A stretch of 64,000 nt of DNA, from assembly GCF_900104845.1 (NCBI RefSeq), contig NZ_FNSR01000002.1, positions 1,364,001 through 1,428,000 of the forward strand, given 5' to 3'. Every line of letters begins with the position of its first letter. Position 1 is the stretch's first letter. Origin of the DNA: Paraburkholderia caballeronis. Lineage in GTDB: Bacteria; Pseudomonadota; Gammaproteobacteria; Burkholderiales; Burkholderiaceae. Of this stretch, positions 15,808 through 32,971 are shown one piece after another. The position numbers and the translations under genes were made by a program. The notes beneath the pieces are model-generated. The model was not told the DNA's origin, searched no databases, and saw only the letters and a program-made list of their open reading frames with translations.

Positions 15808-15871
15808 TCTGGCGTGAAATGGGCGGCGAAAGGGCGAGCACGCGCCCATGCCCCATCTGGAGGAGACACCC

Positions 15872-17053
15872 ATGAGCAACGTACCCGGTTTGCAGTTCCC
15901 GCTCGGCGAAGAGATCGAGATGCTGCGCGACAGCGTCGCCGGCTTCGCGGCGAAGGAGATCGCGCCGCGCGCCGGCGAGATCGACCGCACCGACCAGTTC
16001 CCGATGGACCTGTGGCGCAAGTTCGGCGACCTCGGCGTGCTCGGCATGACCGTCTCCGAGGAATACGGCGGCGCGAACATGGGCTACACCGCGCACATGG
16101 TCGCGATGGAGGAAATTTCGCGCGCGTCGGCGTCGGTCGGCCTCTCGTATGGCGCGCACTCGAACCTGTGCGTGAACCAGATCCACCGCAACGGCACCGA
16201 AGCGCAGAAGCGCAAGTACCTGCCGAAGCTCGTGTCGGGCGAGCACGTCGGCGCGCTCGCGATGAGCGAGCCGAACGCCGGCTCGGACGTCGTCAGCATG
16301 AAGCTGCGCGCGCAGAAGAAGGGCGACCGCTACGTGCTGAACGGCACGAAGATGTGGATCACCAACGGCCCGGACTGCGACACGCTGGTCGTCTACGCGA
16401 AGACCGACCCGGAAGCGGGTTCGCGCGGCATCACGGCGTTCATCGTCGAAAAGGGGATGAAGGGTTTCTCCGTCGCGCAGAAGCTCGACAAGCTCGGGAT
16501 GCGCGGCTCGCATACCGGCGAACTGGTGTTCCAGGACGTCGAGGTGCCGGAGGAGAACATCCTTGGGGCATTGAACGGCGGCGTGAAGGTGCTGATGAGC
16601 GGCCTCGACTACGAGCGCGCGGTGCTCGCGGGCGGCCCGACCGGCATCATGCTCGCGGTGATGGATGCGGTCGTGCCGTACATCCACGACCGCAGGCAGT
16701 TCGGCCAGCCGATCGGCGAGTTCCAGTTGATCCAGGGGAAGGTCGCGGACCTGTACACGACGTTGCAGGCGTGCCGCGCGTATCTGTACGCGGTCGGCCG
16801 CCAGCTCGACACGCTCGGCAGCGACCATGTGCGCCAGGTCCGCAAGGACTGCGCGGGCGTGATCCTCTATACCGCCGAAAAGGCGACGTGGATGGCCGGC
16901 GAGGCGATCCAGATTCTCGGCGGCAACGGCTACATCAACGAGTATCCGGTCGGCCGGCTGTGGCGCGACGCGAAGCTGTACGAGATCGGCGCGGGCACGA
17001 GCGAGATCCGCCGGATGCTGATCGGCCGCGAACTGTTCGCCGAAACCCTCTGA
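15872..17053 (+). CDS. liuA: Isovaleryl-CoA dehydrogenase, 393 aa
   Basis: FAD enzyme oxidising isovaleryl-CoA to 3-methylcrotonyl-CoA in leucine degradation, passing electrons to ETF. The catalytic base of the isovaleryl subclass is seen as Glu in [14 protein letters not shown] (about residue 250), the diagnostic position that differs from most acyl-CoA dehydrogenases. [12 protein letters not shown] and MWITNG are the flavin-binding motifs. ATG at 15872 is preceded by GGAGGAG; the frame opens earlier but lacks homology. First gene of liuABCD, 25 bases before liuB. Confidence 0.95.
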
Positions 17054-18712: not shown

Positions 18713-19498
18713 ATGCACTACGACACGCTCACCGTGGCCGTTGCCGGCCATGTCGCGACGGTCACGCTGAATCGCCCGGACGTGCGCAACGCGTTCAACG
18801 AAACGATGATCGCGGAACTGACCGCCGCGTTCGACGCGTTGAGCACGCGCGACGACGTGCGCGCGGTGGTGCTCGCGGCGAACGGCAAGGCGTTCTGCGC
18901 GGGCGCGGACCTGAACTGGATGAAGAAGATGGCTGGCTACTCGGACGACGAGAACCGCGCGGACGCGATGCGGCTCGCGCGGATGCTGTCGGCCGTCTAT
19001 CGCTGCACGAAGCCGGTTGTCGCGCGCGTGCACGGCGACGCCTACGCGGGCGGAATGGGCCTCGTGTGCGCGGCCGACGTCGTCGTCGCGGCGGACAGCG
19101 CGCACTTCTGCCTGTCCGAGGCGCGGCTCGGGCTGATGCCCGCGACCATCGCGCCTTATGTGATCCGCGCGCTGGGCGAGCAGGCGTCGCGCCGCTACTT
19201 CGTGACGGCCGAGGCGTTCGACTGCGCGACGGCGGAACGGCTCGGCCTCGTTAGCGAGCGCGTGAGCGCCGATCAACTGGATGCGACCGTGCAGCGGATC
19301 GCGGACGCGCTGTGCGCGAACAGCCCGAACGCAGTGCGCGAATGCAAGCGGCTCGTGCAGGACGTCGCCGGCCGCACGATCGACGCCGCGTTGATCGAGG
19401 ACACCGCGAACCGCATCGCAAACATCCGCGCGAGCGACGAAGGCCGCGAAGGCGTGGGCTCGTTCCTCGACAAACGCACGCCGTCGTGGCGCGCCTGA
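18713..19498 (+). CDS. liuC: Methylglutaconyl-CoA hydratase, 261 aa
   Basis: Crotonase-fold enzyme hydrating 3-methylglutaconyl-CoA to HMG-CoA. AFCAGADLNWMKKM (about residues 62-75) is typical of this subgroup; the oxyanion-hole glycine lies in YAGGMGLVCAAD and the active-site Glu in LSEARLGLMPA. The start ATG at 18713 has AGGAGATT upstream. It lies between liuB and liuD, as in other Burkholderiales. The next enzyme, HMG-CoA lyase (liuE), is not in this window. Confidence 0.93.
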   Translation: MHYDTLTVAVAGHVATVTLNRPDVRNAFNETMIAELTAAFDALSTRDDVRAVVLAANGKAFCAGADLNWMKKMAGYSDDENRADAMRLARMLSAVYRCTKPVVARVHGDAYAGGMGLVCAADVVVAADSAHFCLSEARLGLMPATIAPYVIRALGEQASRRYFVTAEAFDCATAERLGLVSERVSADQLDATVQRIADALCANSPNAVRECKRLVQDVAGRTIDAALIEDTANRIANIRASDEGREGVGSFLDKRTPSWRA

Positions 19499-26792: not shown

Positions 26793-27455
26793 TCAGACCG
26801 CGACGCTGAACAGCCGGTTCGCGCGCGATTCGTTGACGGCCGGTGCGCCCGACGTCGCGGTTGCCGCGCGATGCGCGTTGAACGCGAGCGCGAACTGCGC
26901 GGCCTGCGTGCCGACCGTGTACAACTGGTCGACGACCTTCGGGTCCGAGCACTGCTGCGCGCTTTCGAAACGCGTTTCGAGCGTGTTGATGCCGGCGCCG
27001 AACGGCGTCGGCCAGCCGCGCAGCGCGTGCACGATCGAACGCAGCGACGTGAGCACCGACCCCGCTGCCTGCCAGCCGTACGCGGTCACGATGCAGCCGA
27101 CCGCGCGGCCGTCGAGATACGGACGCTCGTCGGCGCGCAATTCTTCCAGCGTGTCGAGCGCGTTCTTCACGAGACCGGACACGCCGCCGTGATAACCGGG
27201 CGTCGCGATGATCACCGCATCGGCGGCGCGGACCGTTTCGATCAGTTCGAGTTGTTCGTCGGTGCGCTGTTCGGTTTCCGGCGCGTAATGCGGGAGGCTA
27301 TGCAGGAACGTGCCGCCGAACAGATGGGTGCGCGCGCCGGCGTTCTCGGCGCCGCGCAGCGCGAAGCTCAGCGCGCGTTCGGTCGACGAGGCGGCGCGCG
27401 TCGTGCCGCCGATGCCGACCACGAGCGGGCGGCGATGGGGATCGGGAGTGGTCAA
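26793..27455 (-). CDS. NAD(P)H-dependent FMN reductase-like flavoprotein, 220 aa
   Basis: Flavodoxin-like fold of the SsuE/ChrR group. GIGGTTRAASSTERAL binds the FMN phosphate (about residues 14-29), ATPGYHGGVSGLVKNALD (about 83-100) is the second flavin loop, and VTAYGWQAAGSVLTSLRSIVHALRGW is typical of these reductases. It probably supplies reduced flavin, or reduces quinones, in the cytoplasm. No monooxygenase partner is adjacent. Its start faces the small-RNA candidate's promoter about 220 bases away. Confidence 0.88.
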   Translation of the reverse strand: MTTPDPHRRPLVVGIGGTTRAASSTERALSFALRGAENAGARTHLFGGTFLHSLPHYAPETEQRTDEQLELIETVRAADAVIIATPGYHGGVSGLVKNALDTLEELRADERPYLDGRAVGCIVTAYGWQAAGSVLTSLRSIVHALRGWPTPFGAGINTLETRFESAQQCSDPKVVDQLYTVGTQAAQFALAFNAHRAATATSGAPAVNESRANRLFSVAV

Positions 27456-27671
27456 CGAAGTGCTCCTTCTTGTTGCTTGGGGGCGAGTCGCGGGGCGCGG
27501 CTGGGCACCGGTCCGGGAGGCGAAGCTGGAACGGCAATCTTAGTGATCGGGCAGCGCCGGACGAAGCGAGATTTTGTTCTAACGATATACGCGGGCCGGG
27601 TTTCCCCGCGGGCGACCGGACATGCAGAGCAATGCAGGAAGGGCGGCCATATGCATATGCGAAAGCATTGG

Positions 27672-27701
27672 TTGAGGCGGACTGCGCCCGCTGGCTATGA
27701 T
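27672..27701 (+). promoter_or_regulatory. Sigma-70 promoter candidate for the small RNA
   Basis: TTGAGG (27672-27677) and TATGAT (27696-27701) are 18 bases apart, both close to consensus in a GC-rich genome. Predicted transcription start about 27708, directly before the small-RNA sequence. Confidence 0.65.
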
Positions 27702-27707
27702 GAACCC

Positions 27708-27776
27708 GTCTCCTCCATGACATCTCCTTGACATGGGATTGGACCCCGTACCGCGCTGGTGTCGGGGTCTTTTTTT
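27708..27776 (+). ncRNA. Two-hairpin small RNA with a ribosome-site complement in its loop
   Basis: About 69 nucleotides between a good promoter and an intrinsic terminator, with no open frame. The first hairpin pairs TCCATG (27714-27719) with CATGGG (27732-27737), including one wobble pair. Its 12-base loop shows TCTCCTT, the complement of AAGGAGA; a second CTCC run lies 5' of the stem. The second hairpin is GACCCCG/CGGGGTC (27742-27748 / 27763-27769) with seven Ts after it. Small double-hairpin RNAs of this kind, with anti-Shine-Dalgarno loops, are known in Burkholderia; I recall ncS27 of B. cenocepacia, but identity needs alignment. It probably represses mRNAs by pairing with their ribosome binding sites. 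Confidence 0.75.
27742..27776 (+). terminator. Intrinsic terminator of the small RNA
   Basis: GACCCCG (27742-27748) pairs with CGGGGTC (27763-27769), with an inner ACC/GGT pairing, followed by seven Ts (27770-27776). This is the clearest rho-independent terminator in the window. Confidence 0.88.
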
Positions 27777-32767: not shown

Positions 32768-32971
32768 CACAGCATCTCCTTGGCGGGGGAAAGCTACGAC
32801 AGGCGCGTCGGCGCGTGTCCGTGGCGGGGCGGCGGCATGGCGCTGCCGAAAACGGCAGCCCTTCGACGAATGCCGATGAAAGCGGCGCGGAGCATGGCAG
32901 GAAACGAAACGCGTCGGCGCACAGCCCCGCATTCCGTTACTACCGTGCGCGAACTCGCGCCGCGATGCGAC

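Follow-up and report, generated by a model that had tools for sequence, protein, structure and literature searches.

The window, a stretch of 64,000 nucleotides from Paraburkholderia caballeronis, is part of the second contig (C2) of a 7.1-Mb genome in three contigs. Upstream of a divergently oriented FMN reductase gene, it carries what appears to be a genuine and conserved gene for a small RNA that belongs to a known family. This RNA is apparently an additional, not yet catalogued member of the family RF02278 and, by analogy with its relatives, probably masks the ribosome-binding sites of metabolic genes and so silences them. The features of the locus and of its candidate target are the following.

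15858..15867, + strand: candidate target TGGAGGAGAC, an exact complement of the RNA 5' end, predicted, 4 nt before the acyl-CoA dehydrogenase ATG
15872-17053, + strand: acyl-CoA dehydrogenase gene (protein search)
26793..27455, - strand: gene of the NADPH-dependent FMN reductase family (PF03358), divergent neighbour and marker of the orthologue group (protein family match)
27649..27665, + strand: conserved upstream block, in relatives mostly close to GATAAGCATATGGCGAA, which may be a regulator site (conservation)
27672..27677, + strand: -35 hexamer TTGAGG (promoter scan and conservation)
27696..27701, + strand: -10 hexamer TATGAT (promoter scan and conservation)
27708..27776, + strand: double-hairpin small RNA, length about 69 nt (5' end placed from the promoter; fold, terminator, RF02278 match)
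27709..27716, + strand: 5' stretch UCUCCUCC, main anti-Shine-Dalgarno seed (conservation and unpaired probabilities)
27714..27737, + strand: hairpin 1, outer arms UCCAUG / CAUGGG (pairing counts in the alignment)
27723..27729, + strand: loop of hairpin 1, UCUCCUU, second anti-Shine-Dalgarno element (conservation)
27741..27776, + strand: hairpin 2 with U7, intrinsic terminator (fold and compensatory changes)

The RNA is preceded by a sigma-70-like promoter with an 18-nt spacer, found once where shuffled sequences gave a mean of 0.1 matches. An earlier note, made from the letters of this DNA, had called it close to consensus; the promoter is there and both hexamers are conserved (across 74 relatives, 90% for the -10 region and 88% for the -35 region, against 56% for the spacer), but 9 of 12 consensus bases make it moderate rather than close. 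Further upstream, the block at -42 to -58 averages 76% majority base in the 74 relatives, compared with 40-44% at -75 to -150. It could be a regulator site or belong to the reductase promoter. This block differs from the motif found upstream of the RF02278 paralogues, TTGC-N2-4-GCA, which occurs at 21 of 33 paralogue loci and is absent from the 95 nt upstream of the window RNA. A passage of Sass 2017 describes a common upstream motif in three of four double-hairpin RNAs.

A DNA search recovered the region in 58 of 70 genomes of the same genus, our own among them, and in one of 48 genomes from elsewhere. Scanning with the FMN reductase protein yielded 192 relatives, of which the best 80 named loci were kept; among these best 80 of 192, the RNA lies upstream of the reductase in 76, 75 detected by blastn and one (L126) by covariance model, while the model finds no RNA in the stretch examined at L075, L098, L120 and L125. 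The 75 sequences from 74 loci and our own genome reduced to 66 distinct ones, and 65 were aligned, with L059 omitted and L126 not included. L124 was excluded because its 5' part is rearranged: in this locus, from P. tagetis, the 5' part of the RNA and the promoter are replaced and the loop and terminator retained, a natural loss of the 5' end. In the alignment, columns 1-14 average 99% majority base, columns 20-35 95% and the terminator part 76%. Conservation peaks on the promoter, the 5' end and stem 1. A covariance model built from the reductase-linked group (model R1), run on 200 genomes with strict filters, scored at least 50.1 bits in 19 of 22 same-genus genomes and in 22 of 22 genomes of genus g60, presumably Burkholderia proper, among the matches listed; the best score listed for any other genus is 45.6.

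The two hairpins and the seven-T terminator described in the earlier note are borne out by the predicted fold of 27708-27776, which has an energy of -27.7 kcal/mol (z -3.31, none of 200 shuffles equally stable) and ends in T7 at 27770-27776. Hairpin 1 is present in the minimum-energy folds of 59 of the 65 sequences, and 99.2% of the cells in its stem are paired, with three of six pairs invariant and none changed on both sides; within the reductase-linked group stem 1 therefore keeps its letters and not its pairing alone. Between paralogue groups it varies with compensation: most of the 65 sequences and 28 paralogue loci fold with U-A as the fourth pair, and eight paralogue loci have C-G there. 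In the terminator stem, both sides have changed in 8 of 11 pairs, which gives 45 compensatory cells where shuffles average 11.6 over the whole structure, counts that used the named structure, written with the window and majority sequences in view, and that consequently favour it. In the consensus that RNAalifold derived from the 65-sequence alignment, the 5' end pairs with the terminator and no pair is compensatory; it was set aside, and the named structure counted, as the terminator stems are probably out of register in the alignment. A simple terminator scan reported no site, which we attribute to the bulge in the stem.

The compensatory changes in the plus-strand terminator also bear on whether the conserved block might encode protein, either as the Shine-Dalgarno sequence and ATG of a minus-strand gene or as a tiny plus-strand peptide. 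Its reverse strand, AAGGAGATGTCATG, does resemble a start region, and a four-codon frame opens from CCATGA on the plus strand in 38 of 63 sequences. Against coding stand the frame lengths among relatives: the minus-strand frame from ATGGAGGAGA runs for 6-9 codons in 55 of 64 sequences, the one from ATGTCATGG for 16 to 338 codons over 31 sequences, and the plus-strand frame beyond the 38 sequences for 25 to 291 codons. We rejected coding on these grounds and regard it as extremely improbable.

The small RNA exposes two CU-rich unpaired stretches complementary to ribosome-binding sites, a trait of the double-hairpin RNAs of Sass 2017. At the 5' end, the first five bases of UCUCCUCC in the window RNA are unpaired with probabilities of 0.89-0.96; the following U is open about half the time (0.55), and the terminal CC lies inside stem 1. 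In the loop, UCUCCU is unpaired with probabilities of 0.94-0.96 and the next U is mostly paired. Averaged over the alignment, the unpaired probability is 0.79 for the first five 5' bases (minimum 0.32) and 0.80 for the loop (minimum 0.37). The earlier note had placed its emphasis on the TCTCCTT loop and had made the conservation of loop and stems in relatives decisive. The loop is real and stem 1 near-invariant, with CUCCUU kept in 60 of 65 sequences and UCUCCUU in 35; the most constant anti-Shine-Dalgarno element, however, is the 5' end, where UCUCCUC occurs in 65 of 65 and TCTCCTCC in 64 of 65. CUCCUU is missing from the loops of L077, L101, L122, L128 and L129, and the last two, both from Burkholderia proper, have UCUCUACU at the loop position. 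The loop complement AAGGAGA, said to stand before many genes in this window, is scarcer than that: it occurs six times, against a chance mean of 2.11, and one occurrence is the complement of the RNA itself. Three of the other five precede an ATG by eye (31253, 32775 and 43001), and in 464 kb of the genome AAGGAGA falls within 4 of 199 roughly called start regions. At 32775 (- strand), CAAGGAGATG, which complements loop positions 27721-27730 exactly over 10 nt, stands directly before the ATG.

The constant neighbourhood, with 196-337 bp between the reductase start and the RNA 5' end in the de-duplicated loci measured, raises the question of whether the RNA mainly regulates the divergent FMN reductase mRNA through a loop-complementary AAGGAG start region. 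Of 73 loci where a start codon lies at the match, 53 do carry AAGGAG in the start region of the reductase. Yet this match is limited to the six-nucleotide Shine-Dalgarno core, the constant element of the RNA is its 5' end and not its loop, and the GGAGA or GGAGAC that the 5' end would need is found in 0 of 73 reductase start regions. The reductase was rejected as a special target, and regulation of the neighbour is in our view improbable.

At curated cut-offs, the window has no match in Rfam. In a permissive search of 501 bases, RF02278 (Betaproteobacteria toxic sRNA) matched with 40.4 bits and E 9e-7 (3e-6 genome-wide), below its gathering cut-off of 50 bits, in an alignment that spans model positions 1-64 of 64 and includes both hairpins, as expected of homology over the whole model. 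Seven reductase-linked relatives scored 43.7, 43.2, 42.5, 42.5, 42.5, 38.9 and 31.3 bits, placing the group, as sampled, under the cut-off. In our genome, three members above the cut-off lie on contig C1 and the window RNA, below it, on C2; model R1 in turn recognizes these paralogues with 41.5, 39.1 and 30.5 bits (E 4e-8 to 2e-5). Each of twelve genomes holds two to four members above the RF02278 cut-off among the matches listed, and seven of the twelve also hold a reductase-linked member, always below it. The covariance-model and blastn searches suggested in the earlier note thus yielded both homology to RF02278 and a group conserved beside the FMN reductase. The window RNA represents a fifth group of orthologues among the double-hairpin RNAs of Burkholderiales that resemble RF02278. 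It consists of two hairpins and little else, with a length of about 69 nt that depends on the inferred 5' end; Sass 2017 gives, in the passage concerned, 57-67 nt for three double-hairpin RNAs and 92 nt for ncS27, which is processed to a short form. Two further RF02278-like RNAs below the cut-off, L170 (G118:C7) and L173 (G129:C130), with the stem CCATATC/GATATGG in one and GACACCTCCTTGAC in the other, seem to indicate that more divergent members of the family exist.

The comparison with ncS27 in the earlier note holds for the kind, as RF02278 and R1 confirm; the RNA is not ncS27 itself but another paralogue, with a place and promoter of its own. The likely ncS27 counterpart is at C1:3447648-3447709 (L004), an assignment inferred from reported lengths rather than from comparison with J2315; there, 36 nt separate the end of a TATAAT from the conserved start. 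The window RNA shares neither the place nor, in its predicted form, the longer primary transcript that would mark an ncS27 orthologue. Identity with ncS62 was rejected as well. A passage on ncS62 locates it between BCAM1871 and BCAM1872, near cepI, whereas our genome has its AHL synthase at C2:2183710 and the RNA at C2:1391707; moreover, B. latens and B. ambifaria each hold a 58-nt member about 1 kb from an AHL synthase, fitting ncS62, and a separate reductase-linked one. The literature passages covered (PMC5688073, PMC10987360, PMC4603805, PMC7011215, PMC10175445, PMC11722255) and the openings of abstracts do not report the reductase-linked member, although it may be counted in Sass 2017, a passage of which states three to five homologues per genome. 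Along with its sequence, predicted fold, conservation and place, the homology of the window RNA and its separation from its paralogues are established.

The 10-nt complement of the 5' end, TGGAGGAGAC, occurs 16 times in the genome, against 6 for the reversed pattern. Four of the 16 are the sRNA genes. The remaining 12 comprise five that sit 0-5 nt ahead of a start judged plausible, a sixth (L209) that includes the start codon by our reading, and six taken as inside coding sequence, L196, L206, L207 and L208 having been judged intragenic by eye where the script offered start codons. Three proteins encoded behind such sites are the start of an ABC/AAA-type ATPase, a GntR-aminotransferase regulator and the acyl-CoA dehydrogenase of the window. 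The start region of the latter, examined in 30 of the 52 matching genomes (L224, misplaced, was counted as a miss), contains TGGAGGAGAC in one genome, our own; GGAGAC is present in 28 of the 30, and GGAGACA in 27. GGAGAC, complementary to the first six bases of the RNA, is found in 6 of 199 called start regions of our genome, and its conservation at the dehydrogenase may be ordinary Shine-Dalgarno conservation. As the paralogues have the same 5' end, the dehydrogenase could be the target of any of them.

Wider searches used 199 start regions called at the first ATG of long open reading frames, which is wrong for some genes. Exact 7-mer complements of the 5' end occur in 4 of 199 and of the loop in 7 of 199, whereas before internal ATGs each has one match in 191. 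The terminator loop, a piece of the RNA taken as a control, matches 1 of the 199 start regions and 6 of the 191 internal ones. Across the genome, the 11-nt loop complement shows no enrichment (five places, one being the RNA itself, against four for the reversed pattern), and none of its four other places is a clear start region by eye. Duplex energies of the 34-nt 5' domain with the 199 start regions average -15.12, against -15.57 for the shuffled domain; 26 of 40 shuffles were equally low or lower, and 45 regions fell below -18, against 54.8 on average. The acyl-CoA dehydrogenase ranks third in predicted pairing among the 199. Near it, at 18713 (+ strand), a GAGGAGA start region ranks 14 of 199 and precedes a protein that is enoyl-CoA hydratase-like by its first residues. 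In the target prediction that the earlier note had proposed for the loop, it was the 5' end that gave a candidate in the dehydrogenase; the 11-nt loop complement was not enriched, and the duplex energies showed no excess over shuffles. Since the wider target tests are weak or negative, the silencing of particular genes is a prediction.

We infer the transcription of the RNA, its Hfq binding, its targets and its repressive action from its relatives and anatomy. It would be made from its own sigma-70-type promoter, ended by the intrinsic terminator, and act in trans, probably assisted by Hfq. The 5' end GUCUCCUCC, with its first half single-stranded, would pair with start regions rich in purines, for instance GGAGAC or GGAGGAGAC, full pairing with the 10-mer requiring the first pairs of stem 1 to open, and the CUCC-bearing loop may help in mRNA pairing. 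Such pairing would stop ribosome binding on selected mRNAs, probably those whose products take up and degrade amino acids, acyl-CoAs and other sources of carbon. Alternatively, the RNA might act on translation in general, as a growth brake or toxin-like molecule. Its CU-rich parts resemble the 16S anti-Shine-Dalgarno sequence, which we count for this alternative. According to a passage of PMC5688073, the family owes its name to the inhibition of growth in E. coli, and overexpression of ncS27 slows growth. By contrast, S17, an RNA of the same kind, leaves exponential E. coli growth unimpaired and acts on defined mRNAs with compensatory proof, as a passage of PMC11722255 describes, and the review PMC10987360, in the part concerned, has ncS27 affecting amino-acid and carbohydrate genes with effects that vary with substrate. 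The small share of our start regions with exact complements of the 5' end or loop points the same way, and we hold a general action on translation to be unlikely. We are confident in the reading as a trans-acting double-hairpin RNA of the fifth group that has its own sigma-70-type promoter and intrinsic terminator and blocks selected start regions with its 5' end.

The Rfam cut-off would then conceal what seems to be an entire conserved branch of this family of regulatory RNAs, spanning two genera. More tentatively, the reductase-linked group could be a specialised branch whose own promoter and upstream element answer another signal and that controls partly different mRNAs than ncS03, ncS05, ncS27 and ncS62, with a Paraburkholderia loop tuned to AAGGAG-type starts and a changed loop in Burkholderia proper, which would rely on the 5' end; we consider this conceivable, although we would not favour it. 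Siblings with a common 5' end and different loops and promoters would offer a good test of target division or backup in carbon and amino-acid use.

Among known RNAs, the B. cenocepacia members of RF02278 (ncS03, ncS05, ncS27, ncS62) present the same order of a 5' UCUCCUCCA, a hairpin with a CU-rich loop and a terminator hairpin. The window RNA differs from them by a longer hairpin 1, with GACAUCUCCUUGAC inside, by its other genomic place and by its score of 40.4 bits, under the cut-off of 50. RF02837 (anti-hemB) is a weak match (19.4 bits, E 0.039 in the 501-base search, cut-off 49.5), and its model has an insert that the window RNA lacks. The sibling NmsR sRNAs of Neisseria meningitidis, as described in a passage of PMC5688073, likewise direct two CU-rich unpaired stretches against ribosome-binding sites; unlike the window RNA, they form a tandem pair. 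A further likeness is to S17/S17S of Bordetella pertussis, which its own paper links to the Burkholderia family (PMC11722255). There, a CU-rich 5' end (Site 1) and loops pair with ribosome-binding regions, and S17S, unlike the window RNA, is processed from a longer RNA. Matching mutations broke and restored repression through Site 1, the proven seed, with a loop site as an aid (PMC11722255, same passages), and the emphasis on the 5' end in the window RNA agrees with this seed.
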